DNA of 39,295 bases from Pseudomonadota bacterium. GTDB lineage: Bacteria; Pseudomonadota; Gammaproteobacteria; Acidiferrobacterales; Acidiferrobacteraceae. Made by a program: the position numbers and the translations under genes. Location of the stretch: positions 1 through 39,295 of the forward strand of contig JAJYQN010000040.1 of NCBI GenBank assembly GCA_021794595.1, in the 5' to 3' direction. The notes under the pieces were generated by a model. That model had not been told where the DNA came from. It worked only from the letters and a program-made list of their open reading frames with translations, and ran no database searches. Shown here piece after piece: positions 19,271 to 33,350 of the stretch; position 1 is the first letter of the stretch, and each line of letters begins with the position of its first letter.

Positions 19271-19295
19271 ATACTTGACAGAATTAGTCGGGAAT
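19271..19295 (+). promoter_or_regulatory. IscR type-1 operator in the cysE promoter
   Basis: Aligned by eye to the remembered consensus ATASYYGACTRWWWYAGTC-RRSTAT, 23 of 25 positions agree. The half-sites are ATACTTGAC and AGTCGGGAAT. The element covers the -35 box and much of the spacer, so [2Fe-2S]-IscR bound here would block RNA polymerase. The same type of site lies before iscR at 20102. Confidence 0.75.
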
Positions 19296-19340: not shown

Positions 19341-20102
19341 GTGACCGAGAAAGGCTATTTTGCCAGTATTTTCGCACGTGATCCAGCGGCGCGCTCGCGT
19401 TTCGAGATCCTGACGCTCTATCCAGGCGTCCATGCCGTGGGTCTGTATCGCCTAGCCCACAGCCTCTGGCGGCTCCGTTTACGGTGGCTAGCCCAGGTGG
19501 TCGCGCATTTTGCACGCTTTATGACCGGCATCGAGATCCATCCTGCGGCCCGTCTCGGGCGGCGGCTATTCATCGACCACGGTTTTGGTGTGGTGATCGG
19601 GGAAACGGCTGAGGTGGGCGATGATTGCACCCTATATCAAGGCGTCACCCTGGGGGGTACGAGCTGGCGGCCCGAAAAGCGTCACCCGACCTTGGGTCAT
19701 AACGTGGTCGTAGGGGCCGGCGCCAAGGTCTTGGGCCCCATTACCGTCGGAGACGGCGCCCGAATCGGCTCGAATTCGGTGGTTGTCAAGGATGTACCGG
19801 CAGGCGCTACCGTCGTCGGGATCCCCGGGCACGTGGTCGTGAAGACCGAGGAGCGAGCGCGGTCGCACGCCGCGCTCGCCCAAAAGATCGGCTTTGAGGC
19901 CTACGGGCAGGAGGCCCAGACGCCGGACCCGGTCGCCTATGCCATCGATTGCGTTTTAGACCATTTGCAGGTCGTAGACCGCCGCCTAGAGCGGATGTGC
20001 GAGGAATTGCGGAAGGCGGGCATTCCCTTGAGTCATGCGGCCGATGCCCCGGTTGTTACCCGCCCAAACGGGGTCTCCGAAGCGGGTTCCCCGCCCCGTT
20101 AA
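19341..20102 (+). CDS. cysE: Serine O-acetyltransferase CysE
   Basis: The 253-aa enzyme acetylates serine with acetyl-CoA, the first step of cysteine synthesis. It has the short N-terminal helical region ([18 protein letters not shown]) and the left-handed beta-helix hexapeptide repeats with catalytic His in [11 protein letters not shown] and [17 protein letters not shown]. The [10 protein letters not shown] loop closes the helix, and a C-terminal tail of about 75 residues follows. The start is GTG 19341, with AGGGAAGGGG upstream. Its place before iscR and its own IscR-type operator suggest it supplies cysteine for the desulfurase IscS. Confidence 0.93.
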
Positions 20103-20126
20103 TAGTTGACTAATCTTGTCAGGTAT
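20102..20126 (+). promoter_or_regulatory. IscR type-1 operator in the iscR promoter
   Basis: By eye 23 of 25 positions match the type-1 consensus, with half-sites ATAGTTGACT and GTCAGGTAT. A -35 TTGACT (20106-20111) lies inside; CACTAT at 20129-20134 is the 17-nt-spaced but weak -10. This is the expected autorepression site by [2Fe-2S]-IscR. Confidence 0.8.
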
Positions 20127-20161
20127 GACACTATGGGACTCGAATAGACGAGGGCGTGGCC

Positions 20162-20635
20162 ATGAAATTGACGACCAAGGGGCGATATGCGGTAACCGCG
20201 ATGCTTGATCTTGCCGTACACCAGCAGGATCAGACGGTGGCGTTGGCCGATATCGCGTCGCGACAGGGGATCTCGCTGTCCTATTTGGAGCAATTGTTTG
20301 CGAAGCTGCGGCGCAAGGGTTTGGTCGCGAGCGTCCGTGGACCCGGGGGCGGGTATAGCCTCGCGGTGCCGGCCTCGGGGATTTCGGTCGCCCAGATCGT
20401 GGTCGCTATCAATGAGAACATCGATGCGACGCGCTGTGGGGGAGAGGAGAATTGTCAGGGCGAGGAGCGTTGTCTTACGCACCACTTGTGGACGGAATTG
20501 AGCCACAGGATCTATGAATTTTTGGACGGGATTACGCTTGCCGATCTTGTAAGCCAGCCGGGGGTACAGGAGGTTGTATTGCGGCAAGCGCGGCGTCCTC
20601 CAATCGCGGTGGATGTGCCTAATACTTGGGTTTGA
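20162..20635 (+). CDS. iscR: Fe-S cluster regulator IscR
   Basis: This 157-aa Rrf2-family repressor has a winged HTH at residues of about 1-65 ([32 protein letters not shown] and the [10 protein letters not shown] wing). Cluster ligands Cys92, Cys98, Cys104 and His107 have the same numbering as E. coli IscR. With a [2Fe-2S] cluster it represses isc genes through type-1 sites; the apo form controls type-2 sites. ATG 20162 has GAGGG 7 nt upstream; GTG 20156 is too close to it. It is first in the isc operon and its stop is 11 nt before iscS. Confidence 0.96.
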
Positions 20636-20646
20636 TGGGAGCCGAA

Positions 20647-21861
20647 ATGAGAAAGCCGATTTATCTAGATTATTCCGCCACGACCCCGGTCGATCCGAGG
20701 GTCGCCGAGACTATGTGTCGCTATTTGACCATGGACGGCGAGTTCGGTAACCCCGCATCGCGCTCCCACGCCTTCGGCTGGCAGGCGGAAAAAGCGGTCG
20801 AACAGGCGCGCGCCGATGTCGCCGCCCTGATTCATGCCGACCCCAAGGAAATCGTCTGGACCTCGGGCGCCACGGAATCGGATAACCTCGCATTAAAGGG
20901 TGCGGCCCACTTTTACCAGAACAAGGGGCGGCACATCGTCACGGTAAAAACCGAGCATAAGGCGATCCTGGATACCGCCCGGCAGCTTGAACGCGAAGGA
21001 TTCTCGGTGACCTATTTGGATCCCGAACCCAACGGTCTTGTCGATCTGGCGAAGCTCGAAGCGGCCTTGCGCCCGGACACGATTTTGGTGTCTGTGATGC
21101 ATGTGAATAACGAGATCGGCGTCATTCAGGATCTGGCGGCGATCAGTAAGATCCTGCGTCCGCGGGGCATTCTTTTTCATTCGGATGCGGCCCAGAGCGC
21201 CGGGAAGATCGAAGTGGATGTCGCGGCGCTGGGCGTCGACCTTCTGTCTCTGAGCGCGCACAAGGTCTATGGGCCGAAAGGCATAGGGGCCTTGTATGTA
21301 CGACGCAAGCCGCGGGTACGCCTTGAGGCGCAAATGCACGGTGGAGGCCACGAGCGGGGCATGCGTTCGGGCACCCTTGCGACTCATCAGATCGTGGGCA
21401 TGGGCGAGGCGTTTCGCTTGGCGCGCGAAGAGATGGCGTCGGAGGCCAAGCGCTTGAGTGCCCTGCGCGACCAGCTTTTGCGCGGGCTTTCGGACATCGA
21501 AGAGGTGTATGTGAATGGGGATCTCGAACACAGGATTCCCGGTAACCTGAATATCAGCTTTAATTTTGTCGAGGGCGAATCGCTCATCATGGCCCTGAAG
21601 GAGCTCGCGGTGTCGTCGGGTTCGGCGTGCACGTCGGCGAGCCTCGAGCCCTCTTATGTCTTGCGGGCCTTGGGACGGAACGACGAGTTGGCGCATAGTT
21701 CGATCCGGTTTACCCTCGGGCGCTTTACGACCGTCGAGGACGTCGAATATACGGTGCGGTTATTGCACGAAAAGATCGGGCGCTTGCGGGAGCTGTCCCC
21801 CTTGTGGGAGATGTACAAAGACGGCATTGATCTCAATTCGGTGCAGTGGGCCGCTCATTAA
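20647..21861 (+). CDS. iscS: Cysteine desulfurase IscS
   Basis: The 404-aa PLP enzyme is identical in length to E. coli IscS. It removes sulfur from cysteine and passes it to IscU and other acceptors. The PLP lysine is Lys206 (SLSAHKVYG) and the active-site persulfide cysteine is Cys328 ([14 protein letters not shown]). The start [20 protein letters not shown] matches the family; ATG 20647 has GGGAG 5 nt upstream. An ATG at 20635, overlapping the iscR stop (TGATG), is in frame and could be used for coupling. Confidence 0.97.
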
Positions 21862-21887
21862 ATCTGTGATACCAGAAGGAGAACGAT

Positions 21888-22292
21888 ATGGCATACGGGA
21901 CTAAGGTTTTGGACCATTATGAAAATCCGCGGAACGTCGGTTCGTTCGACAAGGCCGACCCCACGATCGGTACCGGTATGGTCGGCGCGCCGGCATGCGG
22001 GGACGTGATGAAGCTGCAGATTCGCGTCAATAGCGAAGGCGTTATCGAAGAGGCCCGTTTTAAGACCTACGGGTGTGGAAGCGCGATCGCGTCAAGCTCG
22101 CTTTTGACGGAATGGGTCAAGGGTAAGACCTTGGAAGAGGCCGGCTCGATCAAAAACACCGACATTGCCGAGGAATTGGCGCTGCCCCCCGTTAAGATCC
22201 ACTGCTCGGTGTTGGCCGAGGATGCCATCAAGGCCGCTATCGCCGATTACCGTAAGAAGACCGGTAAGGACGATAGTGCGAACGCGGCATAA
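21888..22292 (+). CDS. iscU: Fe-S cluster scaffold IscU
   Basis: The 134-aa scaffold has cluster ligands Cys37, Asp39, Cys63 and Cys106 and the HscA-recognition motif LPPVK at 99-103. It assembles [2Fe-2S] clusters with IscS and delivers them with HscA/HscB. The C-terminus carries a short extension rich in Lys and Asp. AGAAGGAGAA lies upstream of the ATG, and the gene is 26 nt after iscS. Confidence 0.97.
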
Positions 22293-22306
22293 GGGAGCGA
22301 ACTGAC

Positions 22307-22630
22307 ATGGCTGTGACATTGACCGAGAGCGCGGCGCAGCATGTGCGTCGTTCGCTTGAGAAGCGCGGCCGGGGAGAGGGCCTGAGGCTCGGAGTGCGCA
22401 CGAGCGGCTGTTCGGGCATGGCCTATGTCCTCGAATACGCAGACCAGATAGGGGCCGAGGACCATGTCTATGAAAGTTACGGCGTGAAGGTCCTCGTGGA
22501 CCCGAAGAGCCTCGTGTATCTCGAAGGGACGCAGTTGGATTATACGCGCGAGGGCTTGAACGAAGGGTTCCGTTTCAATAATCCGAATCAGAAGGAGTCC
22601 TGCGGTTGCGGTGAAAGCTTCAGCGTATAG
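22307..22630 (+). CDS. iscA: A-type Fe-S carrier IscA
   Basis: The 107-aa A-type carrier has the three conserved cysteines Cys35, Cys99 and Cys101 (TSGCSGMAY and SCGCGESF). It binds iron or clusters and passes them to [4Fe-4S] apoproteins. It is 14 nt after iscU with its own GGGAGCGAA site. Confidence 0.96.
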
Positions 22631-22644
22631 AACGAGGGCACCGC

Positions 22645-23163
22645 ATGGCACGAAATTACTTCGAATTGTTTGGTCTTCCCGTCCGCTTTGATATCGATCG
22701 GGAAGAGCTCGCGCGCCGCCACCGGGAGCTGATCCGAACCTGGCATCCCGATCGGTTCGCCCAAGGTTCGAGCCAGGAGCGCAGGCTTGCCGTCGAGATG
22801 AGCGCGGATCTGAACGACGGGGTGAAGGTCTTGCGCGATCCCATAGATCGCGCTCGTTATGTCCTGAAATTAAACGGTGTCTCGACCGACGAGGAGACGG
22901 ACACCGTCATGAATCCCGCGTTTCTCCAAGACCAAATGGTATGGCGCGAGCGTCTGGAAGAGAGCCAGGGCGATGCCAGAGTCGTCGATGACTTAGTCGC
23001 CGAGGTCGCGGCTTTGCGGGCGCGCAAGGAGGAGGCCTTAGGCCGCGCCTTGGCGCAAGAGGCCGGGGCCGGCTTTACGGACGCGCGACAACTGGTTCGC
23101 GAGTTGCAGTTCCTCCGTCGCTTTGCCGACGAACTCGACGAAGCCCAAGCCGGAGTATCGTAA
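22645..23163 (+). CDS. hscB: Co-chaperone HscB
   Basis: The 172-aa J-type co-chaperone has an N-terminal J domain with HPD at 34-36, followed by the three-helix IscU-binding domain ([18 protein letters not shown] and the C-terminal coil [12 protein letters not shown]). It recruits IscU to HscA and stimulates its ATPase. It is 14 nt after iscA; hscA begins 1 nt after its stop codon. Confidence 0.96.
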
Positions 23164-23164
23164 C

Positions 23165-25006
23165 ATGGCCTTATTGCAAATCAGCGAGCCCGGACAGTCG
23201 CCGCTTCCGCACGAACGGCGGCGAGCGGCGGGCATTGATCTTGGAACGACCAATTCCCTTATAGCGACGGTCCGTGACGGCCACGTACAGGTACTCGCCG
23301 ATGCCGAGGGCCGTATCCTCCTGCCGTCCGTGGTGCGTTTTCATGCCGACGGCACAACGACGGTAGGGCAAGCTGCGGCCGAGGCCGAGGTTTTAGATCC
23401 GCTTAATACCATCGCATCGGTGAAGCGGCTCATGGGTCGCGGGCACGGCGAGATCGGCGCAAGCCCCTATGAACTGAGTCACACGGACGAGGGTCCTGTG
23501 CGGCTGCGGACGGTGGCGGGCGACAAGACCCCGGTGGAGGTCTCGGCGCACATCCTGCGCACCCTTAAGGCGCGCGCCGAAGGAAATTTGGGCGGCGAAC
23601 TGGGCGGTGTGGTTATCACGGTGCCGGCCTATTTTGATGAACCGCAGCGCCAAGCCACTAAAGACGCCGCGCGTTTGGCCGGGCTCACGGTTTTGCGGCT
23701 TTTGAACGAACCGACGGCGGCTGCGGTCGCCTATGGGCTGGACCGCAACCCCGAAGGGCTCTACTGCGTCTACGATTTAGGTGGCGGCACCTTCGATGTC
23801 TCGCTCTTGCGGCTATCGCAAGGGGTTTTTGAGGTCCTGGCGACCGGCGGCGATGCCCTTCTCGGGGGGGACGATATGGACGCGGCGGTGGTGTGCCACT
23901 GGGTGGCGGAGGGGGCGCGCGCGACGTCGCCCTCGGAGACCCGCCAGCTCTTGCGCGTAGCCCGGCAAGCGCGCGAACGCTTGAGCGCAGAGACCGAAAC
24001 CGCGATTGATGTCCCGGGCGTGTACCAGGGGTCTTTGACCCGTGCGACGCTCGAGGGCCTGATCGATCCCTTGATCGAGCGGACCCTGATCCCCTGTCGA
24101 CGGGTCTTGAAGGACGCTGGCGTGAAGGTCGCCGACATCCACGAGGTCGTCTTGGTGGGGGGGGCCACCAGGACCCCGCATGTGCGCGCAAGGATAGAGG
24201 GATTTTTCCGCAAGGCGCCCTTACACGACATCGATCCCGATCAAGTGGTGGCGGTCGGGGCCGCGCGCCAAGCCGATCTTTTGATCGGCAATGCCGGCGC
24301 CGCCGATATGCTGCTGTTGGATGTTATCCCCTTATCGCTGGGTCTTGAGATCATGGGCGGGCTGGTCGAGAAGATCATTCCGCGCAATTCCCCCATACCG
24401 GCCTCGCGCGCCCAGGAGTTTACGACCTATAAAGACGGCCAGACGGCCTTGGCCGTGCACGTGGTGCAGGGCGAGCGCGACTTGGTGAGCGATTGTCGAT
24501 CCTTGGCGCGCTTTTCCTTGCGCGGTATTCCCCCGATGGTGGCCGGCGCGGCCCGTATCCGGGTGACCTTTCGGGTCGATGCCGACGGGCTTCTCAGCGT
24601 GACGGCGCGCGAACTGACACAGGGTATAGAGAGCGAGATCACGGTAAAGCCGTCGTTCGGGCTGTCGGACGCGGATATCGAGCGGATGTTGGGGGATTCG
24701 ATTATTCATGCGAGCGATGACGCCTTGGTGCGCGCGCTACGCGAACAACAAGTAGAGGCGGACCGGATGATAGAGGCGGTAGAGGCAGCGATGGCGGACG
24801 GCGCGGACCTACTCAGAGACAAGGAACGGACCGCTATTGAGGGGCAGATCGCGCTCCTAAAGAGCGTCAAGGCCGGCACCGATCCCCAGGTGATACGGGC
24901 GGCGATCGCAAGCCTCGATCAGGCCAGCGCAGACTTCGCGGCGCGGCGCATGGACGCCGGTCTGCAAAAGGCAATGACGGGCCGCTCCGTCACCGAGTTC
25001 TCGTGA
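23165..25006 (+). CDS. hscA: Fe-S assembly Hsp70 chaperone HscA
   Basis: The 613-aa Hsp70 is close to E. coli HscA (616 aa). The ATPase domain starts [16 protein letters not shown] and has [14 protein letters not shown] and [14 protein letters not shown]; the substrate domain (from about 380) binds the LPPVK loop of IscU. The start [12 protein letters not shown] is the standard HscA N-terminus; earlier in-frame starts lie inside hscB. GGAG lies about 9 nt before the ATG. The stop overlaps the fdx start as TGATG. Confidence 0.96.
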
Positions 25007-25344
25007 TGGGCCGGATTCGCGTCTTGCCGCATCCGGAGATCTGCCCTGAGGGTGCCGAAATCGACGGACCCGAAGGGATGAGCATCTGTGATGCCCTTTT
25101 GGGCGCGGGTATAGCGATCGAGCACGCCTGTGAGAAGGCCTGTGCCTGCACCACTTGCCATGTATTGATCCGCCAAGGCTTCGAGGCCTTGGAGCCGGCC
25201 GAAGAAAAGGAAGAGGATCTGTTGGACAAGGCCTGGGGCCTGGAGCCGGACTCCCGTTTAAGCTGCCAGGCCAAGATACCAAAGGAGACCCTGGTGGTGG
25301 AGATCCCGAAATACACTATCAACATGGTCTCGGAAGTTCATTGA
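25006..25344 (+). CDS. fdx: [2Fe-2S] ferredoxin Fdx of the ISC system
   Basis: The 112-aa adrenodoxin-type ferredoxin has cluster ligands Cys42, Cys48, Cys51 and Cys87 (ACEKACACTTCHVL and SRLSCQAKI). It donates electrons for cluster assembly on IscU. ATG 25006 overlaps the hscA stop by one base (TGATG), implying translational coupling. iscX follows 19 nt later. Confidence 0.95.
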   Translation: MGRIRVLPHPEICPEGAEIDGPEGMSICDALLGAGIAIEHACEKACACTTCHVLIRQGFEALEPAEEKEEDLLDKAWGLEPDSRLSCQAKIPKETLVVEIPKYTINMVSEVH

Positions 25345-25363
25345 CCGCAAGGAGTCTTTTGAT

Positions 25364-25570
25364 ATGGGCCTAAAATGGAGCGATGCCTCCGATATCGCCA
25401 TTGCCTTGAGCGAGCGCCATCCCGATATCGATCCCCGCTATATCCGCTACACCGATCTGCATAGCTGGGTGCTCGATATCGAAGACTTCGATGATGAGCC
25501 AGAGCGGTCCGGGGAGAAATTGCTGGAAGCGATCCAGATGGCCTGGATCGAGGAAGTCGACCCGGACTAG
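25364..25570 (+). CDS. iscX: ISC accessory protein IscX
   Basis: The 68-aa acidic protein (MGLKWSDASDIAIALSERHP, then the YIRYTDLHSWVLDIEDF helix) is the small IscX/YfhJ protein, which binds IscS and iron and tunes desulfurase activity. AAGGAG lies upstream. In most gammaproteobacteria it ends the operon. Here a diguanylate cyclase gene begins 2 nt after its stop. Confidence 0.95.
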   Translation: MGLKWSDASDIAIALSERHPDIDPRYIRYTDLHSWVLDIEDFDDEPERSGEKLLEAIQMAWIEEVDPD

Positions 25571-25572
25571 AT

Positions 25573-26499
25573 ATGGACACTGAGAACGCCTCTTCTCGGC
25601 AGCCGGGTTTCGTCGTTGTTCGGCTGTGGATTCTCGTGGAGGCGGACCTCTTACGCTTGGCGCGCCTGGCCTTGGACGCGACCCGGACTTGTGGCGGGAA
25701 TGCCTTTAGTGCGGCGGAGACCGTAAGCGCAGTCTTGGCCCGGATGCGCGAGGCGCGGGTCACGGCCGGGGGTGCACTTGAGGTCCGGCTGATGGCAGAC
25801 GAACAGCAGCTCTATCTCGATTTTGCCGAGCAACGCCATATGCTATCGGAGATACGGGCGATGGAGAGTGATCGTTTGGCCGGGCTTGCCGCGCGCTTGC
25901 GCGACGAAAGTGAAAGTCGCGACGCAGAGCTTCTGTGGCAGCAAAACCGTGAGGCGGCGCGAATCGCTGCCGCCCAAGCCGAGGCCCTAGAGGCCCTGGA
26001 AAAAAGCCTCCTGGAAAAGCGCCAAGCCCTGGCCTGGGCCACTTTGCAGGCCGATACCGACCCCTTGACCGGTCTTTATAATCGCCGCGCCTACGATGCG
26101 CGACTCGATCAGGCGGTGGCCGAAGCGCGTTCAGGCGCACGGCCGCTCGCCCTGTTGTTTCTCGATCTGGATCACTTCAAGGACATCAACGATAGCGAGG
26201 GTCACGGCGCTGGCGACTGCCACTTGCAGCGCGTGGGTGCGGTCTTACAAACCGCCCTTGCCGATTCCGGCGACAGCGCCTGCCGTACTGGGGGCGACGA
26301 GTTTGCTGTCATCATGGCCGCGCCCTTAGGACGGGCCTTAGAGGTCGCGCAAGGGGTTATCAAGGCCTTGGATGGGGGTGTGAGCATCGGTCTTTCCCTG
26401 TATCGTCAAGGCGACACCGCTCAGACTTTGGCCAGCCGTGCCGATCAAGCGCTCTACCGCGCCAAAGGCGCGGGTCGCGGACAGGTCATGGTGATCTGA
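25573..26499 (+). CDS. GGDEF diguanylate cyclase with coiled-coil and RsbT-like N-terminal remnant
   Basis: The 308-aa protein has a C-terminal GGDEF domain (about 160-308): DPLTGLYNRRAY, the metal-binding LDLDHFKDIND and an intact active site GGDEF at 240-244, so it should make c-di-GMP. The RxxD inhibitory site has DSGD in place, so product inhibition is probably lost. Residues of about 85-158 are a charged coiled coil. Residues of about 20-83 align by eye with the first half of the RsbT-like domain in the next gene (VEADLLRLARLAL, then TAGGALEVRLM) but lack the ATP-binding N-box and G1 box. There is no membrane segment. It starts 2 nt after iscX with no clear Shine-Dalgarno; the next gene starts right at its stop. 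Confidence 0.85.
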   Translation: MDTENASSRQPGFVVVRLWILVEADLLRLARLALDATRTCGGNAFSAAETVSAVLARMREARVTAGGALEVRLMADEQQLYLDFAEQRHMLSEIRAMESDRLAGLAARLRDESESRDAELLWQQNREAARIAAAQAEALEALEKSLLEKRQALAWATLQADTDPLTGLYNRRAYDARLDQAVAEARSGARPLALLFLDLDHFKDINDSEGHGAGDCHLQRVGAVLQTALADSGDSACRTGGDEFAVIMAAPLGRALEVAQGVIKALDGGVSIGLSLYRQGDTAQTLASRADQALYRAKGAGRGQVMVI

Positions 26500-27570
26500 T
26501 TGGACAAGCGCGCGTTCTGTGATGTCCGACTGCTGTTTGAGCAGACCCTCATAGCCGAGAGCGATCTCATTCGTCTTAAGGCGAGACTCAGTGCGGTCAG
26601 TCTGAGGATGGGCTTTAGCCCGGCGCTCACCGAGCGGGCGCGCATGGTGGCCTCCGAGATGGCCACTAATCAAGGTAAGTATGCGGGCGGCCGCGGCTTG
26701 CTCCAGGTGTGGGAGGTCAAGATCGGTGATCACTGGGCGCTCGATCTCTTTGCTCTCGACCATGGGCCCGGGATCAATGACCTCACCTCGGCGGTGGCGG
26801 ATGGGTACAGTACCGGCGGCACTTTGGGTAAGGGTCTAGGCGGCATGAAGCGGCTTGCGCACGAGTTCGGGCTTATCACCCGGATCGCGGCCAGCCCTGA
26901 GCTTCCCTGGCACGGCACGGCCTTGTGGGCCCGATTTCATTCCCAGGACGCGGGCGCGGGCGCGGGTCCGGGGCGGTTCGCGGCCCATTGGGACCTCGGT
27001 CTTTATCGGCGTAGTTACCAGGATGCGCGTGAAAACGGCGATGGTTTCGTGATCTGTACGCGCTCGGGGCTTCGGGTGCTCCATCTCGACGCCCTCGGGC
27101 ACGGACCCTTGGCGGCCGATGTGGTGGAGGCGGCGATCCAGGGTTTTGATTGCACGAGACCGCTCAGGCAGGCCCTAGCTGAGCTTGAGCTGCACCCGCG
27201 CATGAAACGGGGGGCGGCCGCCTGTTGTTACGAAGCGACCGACCAGGGCAGCTTACTGTGGTTAGGAGTCGGGGATATGCAGGCATGCTTGTTGCATGGT
27301 ATTTCTCGCCAGACCTTGGGCTTCGGGCCCGGTATATTGGGCCAAGTGCACGGCCGCTTGCATGAGGCCGAATGGGTTTGGCCGGAGGGGGGTCTCGTGG
27401 CCAGCGCGTCCGACGGTTTTCGGAGTGGTTGGTCGCAAGCCTTGGCGCTTTTAACGGGTTCGCCGCCGCAATTGCTGGCGTATTTTCTGGGTCATGTGTT
27501 CGGGCGGCTCACGGATGACCGATCATGTGTCATTGTGAGACGGGGGACGGGGGAAGACAATGGAAAATGA
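26500..27570 (+). CDS. RsbT-type kinase fused to RsbX/SpoIIE-type PP2C phosphatase
   Basis: The 356-aa protein combines opposing activities. Residues of about 12-148 are a GHKL serine kinase of the RsbT type, with N-box Asn57 (ASEMATNQGKYAGG), the Asp87 box (LDHGPGI) and a Gly-rich lid (GGTLGKGLGGMKRLAHEF). Residues of about 162-350 are a SpoIIE/RsbX PP2C-like phosphatase with putative metal-binding Asp181 (NGDGFV), Asp197 (HLDALGHG), Asp305 (ASDGF) and Asp340 (DDRSCVIV). The expected targets are the STAS proteins encoded just downstream. A TTG start directly at the preceding TGA means coupled translation; no other start fits. The 3' end overlaps the RsbR-like gene by 11 nt. Confidence 0.82.
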   Translation: MDKRAFCDVRLLFEQTLIAESDLIRLKARLSAVSLRMGFSPALTERARMVASEMATNQGKYAGGRGLLQVWEVKIGDHWALDLFALDHGPGINDLTSAVADGYSTGGTLGKGLGGMKRLAHEFGLITRIAASPELPWHGTALWARFHSQDAGAGAGPGRFAAHWDLGLYRRSYQDARENGDGFVICTRSGLRVLHLDALGHGPLAADVVEAAIQGFDCTRPLRQALAELELHPRMKRGAAACCYEATDQGSLLWLGVGDMQACLLHGISRQTLGFGPGILGQVHGRLHEAEWVWPEGGLVASASDGFRSGWSQALALLTGSPPQLLAYFLGHVFGRLTDDRSCVIVRRGTGEDNGK

Positions 27571-28426
27571 AGGGGCAATCCAGGCCTTACTGATAGAACA
27601 GCTGCAACTGAAGATCGGGACGCTCACAGAGACCATCGAGAAGCGCGGCCGGGATATCTTCGGGGATCGGAATCTCATGTCTCTCGATGAGATTACCGAT
27701 GCGAGTGTGGAATTTTTGGAGCTCATCGTGGTTGTGCTCCAGTCTCCGGAACCCCTAAAGGCGCGCGGCCCGGCGTTCGCGGCGCTGACGCAGTTTATTA
27801 GTGAAATCGCGCAGCAGATCCTCGTCCGGGGCGGGGATATGGAGCAGTTCCTTCGGTATATTATGTTCATGCAACGCTTGTTCATGGAGTCGCTCGAGGA
27901 GCAAGCGGCTATGTCGTTTAGCGAGGCCCGGGCCGTGCTTTTGCTACTCGCGACCCTTTTTAACGAAATGATGCTGTCGGTGTTTCATACCTATCTGCAC
28001 GAGCGCGAAGAGACTATTCGCGCCCAACAAGACGAACTGAAGCAGACATCGACGCCCATCACCAGTATCTGGGACGGGGTACTGACCCTCCCCATTATCG
28101 GCACTTTGGACTCCCAGCGTACCTTGATGATCATGGAGCGGCTGCTCACCAAGATCGAATCCGAGCGGGCGCGGGCGGTGGTCATGGATGTGACGGGCGT
28201 CCAGACCGTGGATTCCCAGGTGGCCCATCATTTGATCCAGATGACGCGCGCCGTGCGGCTCATGGGCGCCAACGCCATTTTGACGGGTATTCGTCCCGAT
28301 ATCGCCCGGGCATTGACGAGCCTCAATATCGAATTGACCGATGTCACGACCCGCGCCACCTTGTCCGATGGCCTGAAGGAGGCGTTTCGGCTCATGAATA
28401 TCGAGGTCCGTGAGAAGCCGGTGTGA
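27560..28426 (+). CDS. RsbR-type stressosome STAS protein
   Basis: The 288-aa protein has an all-helical sensory N-terminal region (about 1-150, RsbRD_N-like; no clear heme or flavin site), a linker helix (about 150-165) and a STAS domain (165-288) with PIIGTLDSQRTLMIMERLL, DVTGVQTVDSQVAHHLIQ and GIRPDIARAL. The two positions phosphorylated as Thr171 and Thr205 in B. subtilis RsbRA correspond to Ser185 and Ser219, with the same spacing of 34. It would form the stressosome scaffold with the next gene product. ATG 27560 has GGGGGA upstream. It overlaps both neighbours (11 nt and 4 nt). Confidence 0.85.
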   Translation: MENEGAIQALLIEQLQLKIGTLTETIEKRGRDIFGDRNLMSLDEITDASVEFLELIVVVLQSPEPLKARGPAFAALTQFISEIAQQILVRGGDMEQFLRYIMFMQRLFMESLEEQAAMSFSEARAVLLLLATLFNEMMLSVFHTYLHEREETIRAQQDELKQTSTPITSIWDGVLTLPIIGTLDSQRTLMIMERLLTKIESERARAVVMDVTGVQTVDSQVAHHLIQMTRAVRLMGANAILTGIRPDIARALTSLNIELTDVTTRATLSDGLKEAFRLMNIEVREKPV

Positions 28427-28764
28427 GACGGCCCTGGCATCTCACCAGGATTGGTCCCGCCGGTCTCTTGTTTGAGCCGAGTGAAGGCCTCAATCCGAGT
28501 GCCGCCCTCGATTATATCGAGGACCTGGTTCAGGTGCTGCTTTCGAGCGAAAGCCGTTATTTGTACTATGATGTCAAAGACGTCGCGATCATTGATACCG
28601 TGTACTACCAATGGTTATTGCAGTTAGAGAGAAGTTGTCGGCTCTTAGGGGTGCGCCTGGTCGTCCTTCATATGCGTCCTGAAACCGCCTTTGCCCTCGG
28701 CCGGAGCCTCGATGGGCCGATCCCTTTCTCCTGTGCCCAAGGTCTCGACAGGCCACCAGTGTAA
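28423..28764 (+). CDS. RsbS-type single-domain STAS protein
   Basis: The 113-aa protein is a stand-alone STAS domain with YYDVKDVAIIDTVYYQWLLQLER and a GVRLVVLHMRPETAFAL strand-helix. The phospho-acceptor is Thr59, aligning with Ser59 of B. subtilis RsbS. It should be the antagonist that holds RsbT until phosphorylated. The start is GTG overlapping the preceding stop (GTGA). It ends the coupled cluster. No good terminator is seen in the 66 nt before the ndk promoter. Confidence 0.75.
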   Translation: MRRPWHLTRIGPAGLLFEPSEGLNPSAALDYIEDLVQVLLSSESRYLYYDVKDVAIIDTVYYQWLLQLERSCRLLGVRLVVLHMRPETAFALGRSLDGPIPFSCAQGLDRPPV

Positions 28765-28830: not shown

Positions 28831-28859
28831 TTGCCGCCTTCCGAAGTAGGCGCTAGAAT
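28831..28859 (+). promoter_or_regulatory. Promoter of ndk
   Basis: TTGCCG (28831-28836) and TAGAAT (28854-28859) are 17 nt apart. Transcription would start near 28866, giving a leader of about 33 nt that includes AAGGAA. This separates the ndk-der gene group from the isc/stressosome transcript. Confidence 0.65.
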
Positions 28860-28898: not shown

Positions 28899-29330
28899 AT
28901 GGCCATCGAACGTACGCTCTCCATTATCAAGCCAGACGCGGTTGGGAAAAACGCCATTGGGGCAATTTATGCCCGTTTTGAGAAGGCGGGGTTGCGGATC
29001 GTCGCGGCCCGCATGATGCACCTGACCCGCGCCCAGGCGGAGGGGTTTTATGCCGTTCACAGGGAGCGGCCGTTTTTTGCCGATCTCGTCGCCTTCATGA
29101 GCTCGGGTCCGGTCATGGTTCAGGTGCTCGAGGGAGAGCAGGCGATCGCCAAGAATCGCGAGGTGATGGGGGCGACCAACCCCAAGGCGGCGGCACCCGG
29201 CACGATCCGCGCCGACTTCGCGGCCAGCATAGACGAGAACGCTGTGCATGGTTCGGACGGTCCCGACACGGCGCGTGCCGAGATCGCCTACTTTTTCGCG
29301 GATATGGATCTCTGTCCGCGTACTCGTTAG
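28899..29330 (+). CDS. ndk: Nucleoside diphosphate kinase Ndk
   Basis: The 143-aa enzyme equilibrates NTP and dNTP pools through a phospho-His intermediate, His117 ([20 protein letters not shown]). [15 protein letters not shown] and [14 protein letters not shown] are typical, and the length is that of E. coli Ndk. It has its own promoter and an AAGGAA site. rlmN follows after 27 nt. Confidence 0.97.
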
Positions 29331-29357
29331 GAGGGTAGTCTGGAGGAAACGGGCTTT

Positions 29358-30431
29358 GTGAATTTGCTGGGCTTGGATCGGGCTGGTCTTGCGGATTTTA
29401 TGCGCCAGATGTCCGAGCCCGCCTTTCGCGCGCAACAGATCTTCCCGTGGATGCACCAGCGCGGGGTCACGGACTTTGCCGCTATGACGAATATCGGTAA
29501 GGCCCTGGCCGGGCGTTTGAGTGAGCGGGCGCGGATCAGCCTTCCCGAGATCGTGACCGAGCATCTGTCGATGGACGGGACCCGGAAATGGGTCTTGCGG
29601 CTCCATGACGGCAATGCGATCGAAACCGTGTTCATTCCGGAGACCGACCGCAATACCCTTTGTATTTCATCTCAGGTCGGCTGCGCTCTCGACTGCGCCT
29701 TTTGCGCGACTGCCCAGGAGGGATTTAACCGCAATCTGACGGCAGCCGAGATCGTAGGCCAAGTGTGGCTCGCCGAGCACACCCTGCGGCAACGCCAAGA
29801 GGGTGCGGGACGGGTTATTACGAATGTGGTCTTTATGGGTATGGGCGAGCCGCTTTTGAACCTGAAAGAGGTGGGTCCCGCGATTCGGATCATTTTGGAC
29901 GATCTCGGTTACGGACTCTCGCGTCGGCGGGTCACGGTCAGTACCGCTGGCGTCGTGCCTCACATCGACCGCTTACATGAGGAGGCGCCGGTCAGCCTCG
30001 CGGTCTCTCTGCACGCCCCAGACGATGCCTTGCGCACGGCGCTCGTGCCGCTGAACAAGAAATATCCGATCGCAGAGCTCCTTGAGGCCTGCCGTCGCTA
30101 TGTAGCGCGGGACCCACGTCGCCGCATTACCTTTGAGTACGCGATGCTGGCGGGTGTCAACGATAGTCCAGACCAGGCCCGCGCCCTGGCGCGCCTCTTG
30201 CGGACCGTACCTGCGAAGATCAATTTGATTCCGTTCAATCCGTTTCCCGGTACCCGCTTCGAACGTTCCCCGGATTCGGTGATAGACGCGTTTCGGGATA
30301 TCCTGCTTGCATCCGGCATCGTGACCATGACCCGGCGCACGCGTGGGGATGGTATTCGGGCGGCCTGTGGGCAGCTTGCCGGGGTGGTTAAGGAGCGGAC
30401 TCGCCGCGTGGTGCCTATTCATGTTTCGTAA
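29358..30431 (+). CDS. rlmN: Dual-specificity rRNA/tRNA methyltransferase RlmN
   Basis: The 357-aa radical SAM enzyme methylates C2 of A2503 in 23S rRNA and A37 in some tRNAs. The cluster cysteines are Cys109, Cys113 and Cys116 (CALDCAFC). The mechanistic cysteines are Cys102 and Cys337 ([12 protein letters not shown]). [21 protein letters not shown] is also typical. GTG 29358 gives the usual MNLLGLDR start, with GGAGG about 11 nt upstream. It overlaps pilW by 11 nt. Confidence 0.95.
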
Positions 30432-31191
30432 AAAGCTTATTTGGACGGTGGTTTTTCTGGGCGGACTGGCCGGTTGCGCGACCGGACCTAGACTGACCCC
30501 TCAGTCTCATAAGCTCGTCCAGTTGCGGGTCGCGCTCGGTGTCGGTTATATGCGCCAAGGGCAGTTGGGTTTGGCGCGTAACGAGCTCGCGCAGGCCTTA
30601 GCCATCGATCCCACTGACGCCCCGGCCTTGAGTGCTATGGCGATCGCCGAAGAACGGCTCCGTGAGCCCGCCAAGGCGGCGCACTATTTTCGCACGGGTT
30701 TGTCCCTGCATCCGCACGACGGCAACCTCCAGAACAACTATGGGGCGTTTTTGTGCGGGCAAGGGGATGTGAAACGCGCGATCCGGCACTTCAAGGCGGC
30801 CCTGCATTCGCCGCTTTACGCGACACCCCAGATAGCCGACCTCAATATGGGTGTGTGTCTTATGAGGACGCCTCAGAGAAAGGCCGCCATCCATTACTTT
30901 CATAGGGCCCAGGCCTTGGCGCCGGCCTTGGCCGGCCCTTATTATTACTTGGCGCGAATTCGCTATAAGGGCCACGAATGGCACCGGGCCAAGGTCGATC
31001 TCCATCAGTATTTGCAACTGACCCGTAGTGTCCAAGCCCTCTTTTTGGGCGTGCGGATCGGGCGTGCGCTCGGCGATAAAAAGCTTGTCCGATTTTGTGC
31101 CACTCGGCTTTTGGGTAATTATGGACATACCCCTCAGGCGCGCATAGTCGAGGCATGGCAGCGGAGGGGGCAGCTCTTTGGACACTCGTGA
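30421..31191 (+). CDS. pilW: Type IV pilus pilotin PilW/PilF
   Basis: The 256-aa lipoprotein has lipobox LAGC (Cys19, Ala at +2, outer membrane) followed by about six TPR repeats ([24 protein letters not shown]-like [22 protein letters not shown]). PilF of Pseudomonas is the pilotin for the PilQ secretin, and this position between rlmN and rodZ is conserved. ATG 30421 lies inside the rlmN end; earlier in-frame starts would add sequence before the signal peptide. Confidence 0.9.
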
Positions 31192-32221
31192 CCCCATGAA
31201 TGGCGCGGCCGTGAACCCGGGCGAACGCCTGAAGGCGGCCCGCGAGCGGGCCGGGTGGTCGATCGAACAGGTGGCCCTGAAGCTGCGGCTGTCGGTGGCG
31301 CAGGTCGCGGCCCTCGAGAAGGGTGAGCGCGAGGGCCTGCCCCCGGCGGCCTACGTCCGCGGCTATTTGCGCAGTTACGCGCAGCTCTTGGGGCTCGACC
31401 CCCAGGAGTTCGCCAAGGTGCGCGGTAGTGTCGAACCCGCAGCGGTGGGGGAGAGGCCGGCAGTGGCCCCCAAGACGAGATTGCCATGGGAGCCCTTAGT
31501 CTACGCCTTGTTTGTCATAGGTCTCGTGGTGGGAGTGGTGTGGTGGCGTATGGATAGACGTCCGTCCACGAGGCCAGTTCATGACACGGTGTCGTCCGTG
31601 GAGGCGATCGGTGCGCTGCCGCCGCGCTTACAGTCACTTGCGATGCCAGGTGCGAACGACGGCCAATTGAGTGAGTTTCCGTTGCATCGCCGGGGCCTCG
31701 GGCCCCGCTCAACGGCTCCCGCGCCCGTCTCGCGCGAGCCGCTCTCGACAGGTCCGGTGAGCGGGGCGAAGGTGGCCCGCGCGCCCCTCCCGCAGCCGCT
31801 TCCGACACCGCACGGGACGCCGGGCGGGAAGGTCTCCGTGCCGAGCGCTAAAATACCCGCGCAGGGCGTCCTGACTCCCGGAATGAAGACAAAGACCGGG
31901 GCGACCGCCCTTCCGGCCGCGCCGCCTAGCGCTGTACCGAACCCCGGAGGATTGATAAGCTTACCGCAGGGTCGCCATTACGCGACTTTACGCATCAGGG
32001 CGACATCCGGTGGCGTTCGGGTTTTGGTGCGTGACGCCAAGGGGACACGGCTCTTGGCCACCCGTATTGCTGCGGGTCACGGGGTCCATGTCGTGGGTCT
32101 GCCGCCGTTTAGCGTGGCGTTGAGTCGATCCCGAGGGGTCTTCATAACGATCGGCGGGCACGCGGTGGCGCTCCCCTCGGCCCATAAAGGGCGCCGTTTA
32201 CGGATCACAGTCGATCGATAG
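31178..32221 (+). CDS. rodZ: Cytoskeleton protein RodZ
   Basis: The 347-aa protein links MreB to the cell-wall synthesis machinery. Residues of about 13-85 form a RodZ-type HTH ([39 protein letters not shown]). One membrane helix follows (about 108-124, [18 protein letters not shown]), then a long Pro/Ala/Gly-rich periplasmic linker (about 130-255) and a DUF4115 beta domain. TTG 31178 is chosen for its GGAGGGGG site, giving a 14-nt overlap with pilW; ATG 31196 is the alternative. Confidence 0.87.
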
Positions 32222-32234
32222 GTGGGAGAATTCT

Positions 32235-33350
32235 ATGCATGAGACGACCCAGATTATACGCCGTAAGAGCCGCGCTATCCGCGTGGGACGGGTGACCGTA
32301 GGCGGGGATGCCCCCATCAGCGTTCAGAGCATGACCAATACTGACACCTGCGATGTCGCAGCGACCGTGGGGCAAATCCAGCGCTTGGTGGCGGCCGGGG
32401 CCGATATTGTCAGGGTGTCGATTCCGACGATGGAGGCCGCCCAGGCCTTTGCGCAGATTCGTAAACAGGTCGATGTCGCACTCGTCACCGACATCCATTT
32501 TGATTATCGCATCGCCCTCGAGGTTGCGAAGCTCGGGGCCGATTGTCTGCGCATTAACCCCGGTAATATTGGGCGCGAAGATCGGGTTCGACAAGTCGTC
32601 GATGCCGCCCGCGACCGCGGCATCAGTATTCGCGTCGGAGTCAATGCCGGCTCGCTTGAGAAGGACTTACAGAAGAAGTACGGGGAGCCCAACTCCGATG
32701 CCTTGGTCGAGTCGGCGGAAAGGCATATGGAAATTCTGGAGCGCCTCAATTTCCGGGATTACAAGATCAGCCTCAAGGCCTCGAACATCGCCATGACGGT
32801 GGCCGCTTACCGCAAGCTCGCGACCATGACCGAGCAACCCTTGCATCTCGGCATTACCGAGGCTGGAGCGCTCCGGGGCGGTACCGTCAAATCAGCGATC
32901 GGTCTGGGCATGCTCTTGGCCGAGGGTATCGGCGACACATTGCGGGTGTCTTTGGCGGCTGATCCCGTCGAGGAGGTCAAGGTCGGTTTCGAGATCCTGA
33001 AAAGCCTCCAGTTGCGTAAGAAGGGGGTGAATCTGATCGCCTGCCCCTCGTGTTCCCGGCAAGAGTTCGACGTGATAGGAACGGTCAACGCCCTTGAGGC
33101 GCGGCTCGAGGACATTCAAGAGTCCATCGATGTCGCGGTTATCGGCTGTGTCGTCAACGGCCCCGGGGAGGCGAAAGAGGTGCAGGTCGGCCTCGCCGGT
33201 GGTTCGCCCAATCTGCTCTATAAGGACGGCAAGCCGTACGGTAAGGTGAATAATGCCGATCTGGTCGATACGCTCGAGCGGGCCGTGCGCGAGGAGCTGA
33301 AGCGGCGCGCGTCCAGCGCCCCAATTATCCCGATCAAAGCCCTGCCTTGA
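32235..33350 (+). CDS. ispG: 4-hydroxy-3-methylbut-2-enyl-diphosphate synthase IspG (GcpE)
   Basis: The 371-aa [4Fe-4S] enzyme converts MEcPP to HMBPP in the MEP isoprenoid pathway. The cluster ligands Cys270, Cys273, Cys305 and Glu312 (ACPSCSR and GCVVNGPGE) have the same numbering as E. coli IspG. The TIM-barrel N-terminus is intact ([11 protein letters not shown]). GTGGGAGAA lies upstream of the ATG. As an Fe-S enzyme it depends on the nearby isc genes. Confidence 0.97.

Follow-up and report, generated by a model that had tools for sequence, protein, structure and literature searches.

A conserved gene cassette of diguanylate cyclase, fused RsbT-RsbX, RsbR-like and RsbS-like proteins: a candidate partner switch for cyclic di-GMP, joined in one bacterial family to the isc operon

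Stressosomes tied to diguanylate cyclases are already known, i.e., from Moorella, Vibrio and other Proteobacteria. For Moorella thermoacetica, Quin et al. reportedly described in 2012 a stressosome with a diguanylate cyclase, MtG. The RsbT homologue of that organism is reported to act on a downstream cyclase (PMC4976288), with MtG consisting of RsbU_N, GAF and GGDEF domains, that is, with an RsbU N-terminal domain (PMC12143880). The stressosome of Vibrio vulnificus has been linked to iron metabolism (PMC9237108), and SiaD of Pseudomonas aeruginosa is a cyclase that is switched on when a phospho-regulated partner acts on its stalk (PMC8457831). Considered in what follows is a four-gene set found in a 39,295-nucleotide stretch of DNA, ‘the window’, from a Pseudomonadota bacterium of the Acidiferrobacteraceae (contig JAJYQN010000040.1). 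The set consists of genes for a diguanylate cyclase, an RsbT-RsbX fusion (TX), an RsbR-like protein (R) and an RsbS-like protein (S), and it follows iscX, the last gene of an iron-sulfur (Fe-S) cluster assembly operon, isc. Its features are these:

25573-26499, + strand: diguanylate cyclase, 308 amino acids, with intact GGDEF motif (Pfam GGDEF, E 2.7e-35)
within the cyclase, by residue: N-terminal domain, ~11-98 (predicted RsbW-like half domain); helical stalk, ~99-161; GGDEF domain, ~160-303
26500-27570, + strand: TX, an RsbT-type kinase domain fused to an RsbX/SpoIIE-type PP2C phosphatase, 356 amino acids, TTG start
27560-28426, + strand: R, RsbR-like, an N-terminal sensor region plus STAS
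28423-28764, + strand: S, a small RsbS-like STAS protein

Open reading frame positions in the window give successive spacings, from iscX onward, of 2 nucleotides, 0 nucleotides, an 11-nucleotide overlap and a 4-nucleotide overlap. The initial annotation of this DNA, in describing four coupled genes after iscX, thus was correct as to coordinates, and its description of them as a stressosome-type set with a cyclase is supported by the profile matches of TX, R and S along with GGDEF. That annotation did not mention the downstream genes ndk-rlmN-pilF-rodZ-ispG, the IscR-type site, the promoter-like element of ndk or how widely the cassette is spread.

The extent of this arrangement was assessed by a TX alignment scan, taking one genome per species, which yielded 85 relatives; 80 of these were retained, making 81 loci with that of the window. 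TX alone was the query; the GGDEF, R and S genes were not selected for. GGDEF, TX, R and S nonetheless stand on one strand and in this order in 72 of the 81 loci (window included), and in the other nine a contig end lies within 184 nucleotides of the block. It is because this order, kept beyond chance, recurs although only TX was queried that the four genes can be said to form a real cassette. Judged by gene order, that is, GGDEF-TX-R-S is a conserved unit which travels together in other bacteria.

Within a sample of 96 genomes of relatives, that of the window included as in the counts which follow, TX matches occur in 21. Seventeen of these 21 hold the GGDEF-TX-R-S block in order, two of them missing a terminal gene where the contig stops, and the other four have weaker matches in different arrangements. 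Clusters of RsbR-, RsbS-, RsbT- and RsbX-like genes of another kind are seen at loci L021, L023 and L026 (genomes G046 and G028), where multiple kinase- or phosphatase-like stretches stand apart from one another in non-cassette arrangements. A draw of 369 genomes from the class yields 17 with a TX match at 1e-20, among them G028, which differs in arrangement. As to who carries the cassette, 42 of the 80 loci are named to order, family or genus and 38 only as Proteobacteria, a class, or bacterium. The named carriers are Gallionella (8), Thiobacillus (7), Sulfuricella (6), Sideroxydans (4), Thioalkalivibrio (2), Sulfuricaulis (2) and Hydrogenophilus (1), the rest being Gallionellaceae and similar, and all 42 belong to what we take to be lineages of sulfur, iron or hydrogen oxidisers. 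No widely shared cassette neighbours were seen, the commonest flanking cluster of open reading frames being found in 11 of the 80 loci.

The cyclase is held to the cassette by its N-terminal domain as well as by its gene’s position. This domain has no match in Pfam, and its own profile matches in 18 of the 96 genomes (with the first 55 candidates scored in some genomes), 16 of these matches being cassette cyclases and two being weak ones elsewhere (8.7e-4 and 9.3e-4). Every cassette genome’s cyclase is so caught except that of G037, where the cyclase is cut off, and in the window’s own genome the profile matches one place versus 27 GGDEF matches. Because elsewhere the profile gives only those two weak matches, the domain is, by sequence, specific to the cassette and goes with it. 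(The genome in question, G000, at 2.9 Mb, has in addition to its 27 GGDEF matches 24 EAL matches, one of these below cut-off, and a single PilZ match.) The association of cyclase with TX, R and S is one of genes, and one might accordingly view the cyclase as a mere neighbour, with the other three proteins controlling something else. The cyclase gene is first in 80 of the 81 loci, however, which is all of those that hold its place, and that regularity, together with a domain scarcely found outside of the cassette, makes the mere-neighbour view very improbable.

TX has as its sole Pfam match a sub-threshold one, to HATPase_c_2 (0.049). Comparison of its family profile with PDB sequences matches the second half to SpoIIE-type 3zt9 (2.7e-20) and to RsbX 3w40 (9.2e-10), by which its predicted identity as an RsbX-type PP2C is secured; the RsbT half has conserved adenosine triphosphate (ATP) motifs along with a weak RsbW match (E 0.6). 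Residues E53, N57, D87, G110 and G112 of the kinase half are invariant across those rows with a letter there (80 to 81 rows), as are D181, D197, D259, D305 and D340 of the phosphatase half, with the metal aspartates among those conserved. For the kinase motif families we assume the customary names. The GGDEF motif of the cyclase, for its part, is present in 80 of 80 rows.

R matches STAS in Pfam (E 2.5e-13) and, weakly and below cut-off, RsbRD_N (0.0041). Against the PDB, the R profile matches RsbR-type stressosome chains, best of all 7o0i_B (1.5e-37), over linker plus STAS. The Pfam STAS match of S (1.2e-4) falls at 22.2 bits versus a cut-off of 22.6, and the S profile matches RsbS in the PDB (6jhk, 5.2e-5; 6qcm, 7.1e-5). 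Among the components which characterize stressosomes, the cassette therefore has an RsbR-type R, a single-STAS, RsbS-type S, the ATP motifs of RsbT and an RsbX-type PP2C. A separate, releasable RsbT is what it lacks, the RsbT-type domain being fused to the PP2C in one open reading frame. Haem sensing by R was considered and set aside, as no histidine of the R N-terminal region reaches 60% conservation.

The two STAS proteins differ in their acceptor positions. Using what we take to be the RsbR phosphosite numbers, T171 and T205, and placing these in R by alignment with RsbR chains, the R of the window has Ser219 at the T171 position and Ala251 at that of T205. Across the family, the former position, which follows Asp218, is serine in 72 and threonine in 3, i.e., in all 75 rows that have a residue there (three rows being gapped), and the latter is alanine in 69 and serine in 6 of 75 rows. 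At the Ser59 position of RsbS, S has serine or threonine in 8 of 73 rows and proline in 30, with neighbours that are conserved (Asp58 in 69 of 73, Tyr61 in 72 of 73). A phosphorylatable residue at this position is not, that is, a conserved feature of cassette S proteins. Because the R acceptor site is conserved and position 59 of S mostly lost, the phosphate cycle most likely would be carried by R rather than by S. The S of the window has Thr59, the S of its closest relative having proline. Variability at the RsbS site has some precedent, as Bacillus subtilis RsbS sites also are not conserved in Vibrio brasiliensis (PMC4976288).

What the cyclase N-terminal domain might be is suggested by structure prediction. 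An AlphaFold2 model (73 sequences) has a predicted local distance difference test (pLDDT) value of 92.6 and a beta-alpha-alpha-beta-beta-beta topology. Among 50 Foldseek matches listed from the PDB for this model, eight have probabilities above 0.3 (0.44-0.91), with TMq of 0.51-0.65, and all eight belong to the RsbV/RsbW complex of B. subtilis. They are taken to be RsbW chains: 6m36_A is named RsbW in the TX profile search, and there are ten such chains across two PDB entries. Several results speak against RsbW likeness. Foldseek E-values for it are 0.19-0.79, with no PDB match at or below 0.001, and the top row by E-value is an unrelated chain, 3sv1_B (0.062, probability 0.12). With hhalign, comparison of the domain with the TX kinase half gives 0.04% with untrimmed ends and 0.4% with clean ends; comparison with the PP2C half gives 0.4% as well, versus 100% for a positive control, i.e., kinase halves from two row sets. 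The idea of a degenerate RsbT is not supported by hhalign and is kept solely because of the structure model. Because of that model and Foldseek, and despite the null profile comparison, the RsbW-like reading is retained, and with moderate confidence the domain is predicted to have a kinase fold that is truncated and lacks ATP motifs.

When the entire cyclase is the query, the Foldseek matches listed are taken up by GGDEF and are uninformative as to the N-terminal domain. The stalk plus GGDEF part resembles SiaD (PDB 7e6g). In 40 of 79 cyclases, mostly those of loci L121-L174, the GGDEF domain is followed by a C-terminal cysteine tail, C-x(3,9)-C-x(2,4)-C, which is a possible metal or redox site. 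The cyclases of the window and of loci L095-L097 are without this tail.

The best explanation of the whole, which we hold tentatively and at somewhat less than even confidence, is of a four-gene partner-switching cassette that sets levels of cyclic di-GMP (c-di-GMP). R and S would co-assemble via their STAS domains to form a stressosome-like scaffold, with S serving mostly as a non-phosphorylated structural partner and with input sensed by the R N-terminal region. TX would be bifunctional, phosphorylating R at Ser219 and also removing that phosphate. The cyclase would use its N-terminal pseudo-kinase half domain to dock on the scaffold, where it would compete with the TX kinase domain, and a change in docking would be relayed along the helical stalk to the GGDEF dimer. 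The gene set, its order and place, the intact motifs, the R acceptor, the loss in S and the specificity of the N-terminal domain are read from the DNA; scaffold, phosphate cycle, docking and transmission we infer. Weighing against this explanation are that TX may act on other targets, that with 27 GGDEF matches in the genome the cassette’s output may be minor, that the Thr59 of the window’s S makes phosphorylation of S possible, and that expression, binding and catalysis are predicted.

An alternative is wiring as in Moorella, where the RsbT-like half of TX, upon release from R and S, would directly bind or phosphorylate the cyclase, making the N-terminal domain a receptor for TX rather than a mimic of it. 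An RsbT homologue that acts on a downstream cyclase is, after all, what has been reported from M. thermoacetica (PMC4976288, PMC12143880), and gene linkage here fits this alternative equally well. The N-terminal domain, however, is predicted to be beta-alpha-alpha-beta-beta-beta rather than the four-helix bundle of RsbU_N and is without a Pfam match, and TX, being tied to its own phosphatase, is not a freely released RsbT. Direct action of TX on the cyclase is on balance rather unlikely.

The partner-switching explanation involves, for the family of the window only, a further step, one that concerns the cassette’s surroundings, which are as follows:

20102-20126, + strand: putative IscR type-1-like site ahead of iscR, kept across the family
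20156-25570, + strand: operon iscR-iscS-iscU-iscA-hscB-hscA-fdx-iscX (iscR, fdx and iscX identified by family, the rest by sequence and order)
25364-25570, + strand: iscX (TIGR03412, E 1.5e-31; identity certain)
28831-28859, + strand: promoter-like element TTGCCG-17-TAGAAT upstream of ndk; it bounds the insertion on its downstream side
28899-33350, + strand: ndk-rlmN-pilF-rodZ-ispG, downstream of S and, in module-free relatives, directly 3' of iscX

Of the 80 other loci, just three have isc-region genes in their flanks (L095-L097, of genomes G010, G009 and G015), with none present in the available flanks of the remaining 77. The flanks searched had medians of ~6.9 kb upstream and ~6.7 kb downstream, with at least 1 kb upstream available in 70 of the 80 loci. 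Six cassette genomes from outside of the family in which iscX could be located (G021, G023, G026, G032, G082 and G090) have it on another contig or at least ~150 kb from TX. In the TX tree the window groups with the three isc-linked loci as a single clade (100% support). The four come from the same family, and of its 18 sampled genomes four carry the cassette, in each case at isc. As a general arrangement, the coupling to isc described in the initial annotation thus is largely not borne out, with homologues unlinked to isc in the great majority of loci, which largely is the finding that it had named as counting against it; as a linkage within this family, the coupling stands. Because nearly all other cassettes lie away from isc, Fe-S status does not belong to the core of the module, and the isc link is a peculiarity of a single family.

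Module-free genomes of the family display what the site looks like without the cassette. Ten of 13 other genomes of the same genus lack TX and have iscX followed directly by ndk. Family-wide, ndk comes next after iscX in 13 of 14 further genomes sampled, at a gap of 105-276 nucleotides, with the contig of G007 ending too early. Module remnants were sought in those 13 gaps, and matches were at chance level (E 2.0 and 2.3). The element TTGCCG-17-TAGAAT, either exact or once as TTGCTG, precedes ndk in all 13 of these genomes, in the window and in two of the three other carriers, and is absent from G015 and from three of three outside genomes examined. The promoter scan itself being at chance level, this element is credited because of its conservation in relatives, and it is because it is kept with and without the module that the cassette can be placed after the last isc gene and ahead of the ndk promoter. 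In L091 and L093 (G090 and G023), an ndk query goes unmatched between iscX and rlmN, unlike in most other genomes examined. In a tree of ten isc-region proteins, G015 falls outside of all other family members (92%), and the module-free crown group has G009 as its sister (100%). Apparently, and most simply, there was a single arrival between iscX and the ndk promoter, followed by losses; repeated arrival at the same isc site would be a less economical history.

Given that the cassette moved, apparently once, to the 3' end of isc in this family alone, its amount there probably tracks IscR-controlled isc transcription. The gap between iscX and the GGDEF gene is 2 nucleotides in the window, leaving no room for promoter or terminator, just as the tight coupling described in the initial annotation would have it. 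This junction is likewise 2 nucleotides in G010, an overlap or of uncertain start in G009, and ~71 nucleotides in G015. The IscR type-1-like site at 20102-20126 has two mismatches to what we take to be the type-1 consensus, with none such found in 100 shuffles, and an IscR-type site with 0-4 mismatches precedes iscR in 16 of 16 family loci that hold the region, from among the 18 genomes sampled, including upstream of each of the four cassette carriers. In this family, transcription of the cassette from the iscR promoter is, on this genomic evidence, likely. Less favorable are the four mismatches of the G015 site, and scans of the window for sigma-70 promoters (4, versus 4.5 in shuffles) and for terminators (13 versus 12.4) which display no excess. 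A second IscR type-1-like site, at 19271-19295 and also with two mismatches, lies just before a cysE-like gene at 19341, and a counterpart with 2-4 mismatches is similarly placed in eight relatives (G005, G006, G009, G010, G011, G013, G016 and G017).

Of the idea of IscR setting the module’s level, co-expression with isc is plausible here given junction and site, and control by Fe-S is local to this family, not core to the module. The cassette instead may simply use a strong housekeeping operon for its expression, its isc position being passive and without Fe-S function, a possibility which denies the Fe-S link only and is compatible with the protein mechanism outlined above. The 77 loci without isc genes and the intact isc-ndk region of module-free relatives are in keeping with such passivity. 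Against it is a link to isc that persists down to 45% TX identity among the four sampled carriers, each with its IscR-type site upstream. Passive position may be viewed as slightly the better bet. More doubtful, though worth stating in full, is the combined proposition that a cyclase with a catalytically dead, truncated RsbW/RsbT-like domain competes with RsbT-X for STAS partners, that this is conserved in iron- and sulfur-oxidising Beta- and Gammaproteobacteria, and that one family has placed it under Fe-S control through IscR.

The initial annotation knew of no description of a stressosome set fused to an Fe-S operon, and none was found in searches of the openly licensed literature, either of that or of a GGDEF-TX-R-S cassette, which is weak evidence of absence. 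Not found described there are the fused RsbT-X, the cyclase-first order, the cyclase’s N-terminal domain and the isc placement. For V. vulnificus in artificial seawater, an excerpt reports upregulation both of five of eight isc genes and of stressosome genes (PMC4260858), and it does not link the two to each other; this may be an independent hint at shared conditions. Attachment is essential to life on minerals for such lineages as Thiobacillus, Gallionella and Sulfuricella, and in these the cassette is a compact, conserved candidate c-di-GMP switch. With the isc-linked family, nature provides a test of whether c-di-GMP can be coupled to Fe-S status. If true, the pseudo-kinase reading would represent a partner switch whose output enzyme has itself taken on the kinase fold.

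The cassette may be set beside four known systems. With the RsbRST systems of Bacillus and Listeria it shares RsbR and RsbS homology, RsbT-type kinase motifs and an RsbX-type phosphatase. It differs in that its RsbS Ser59 position is variable, its RsbR T205 position is mostly alanine, T and X are fused, and genes for RsbU, RsbV, RsbW and SigB are lacking.

With the Vibrio RSTX type, the likeness is to a minimal, Gram-negative stressosome tied to c-di-GMP or two-component outputs (PMC9237108, PMC4976288). In Vibrio, however, the order is R-S-T-X, T and X are separate, and RsbR has a haem globin (PMC9237108), whereas the cassette R has no such conserved histidine. The best PDB match of R, 7o0i_B, is from what we take to be a V. 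vulnificus entry.

In SiaABCD of P. aeruginosa, a kinase, a phosphatase and a phosphoprotein partner control a stalked cyclase (PMC8457831), and it is the structure of SiaD, 7e6g, that the cassette cyclase’s stalk and GGDEF domain match. There, however, SiaC binds the stalk, SiaA and SiaB are separate, no RsbR/RsbS-type pair is mentioned in the portion of that account drawn upon, and the SiaD N-terminal domain is small (PMC8457831), seemingly too short to correspond to that of the cassette. SiaC and SiaB families are not among the Pfam and NCBIfam matches of the four cassette proteins, and the cassette cyclase scores 104.7 bits versus a SiaD family cut-off of 290, placing it outside of SiaABCD.

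Moorella shares with the cassette an RsbT-type kinase and a stressosome with a cyclase output, and the TX PP2C half has as its best PDB match 3zt9, presumably a Moorella protein. The cassette differs from Moorella in that kinase and phosphatase are fused, the cyclase’s N-terminal domain is other than RsbU_N, and the cyclase comes first in the operon. The cassette, in other words, offers a concrete example of how cyclase control by a stressosome-type set could operate in the absence of RsbU_N.

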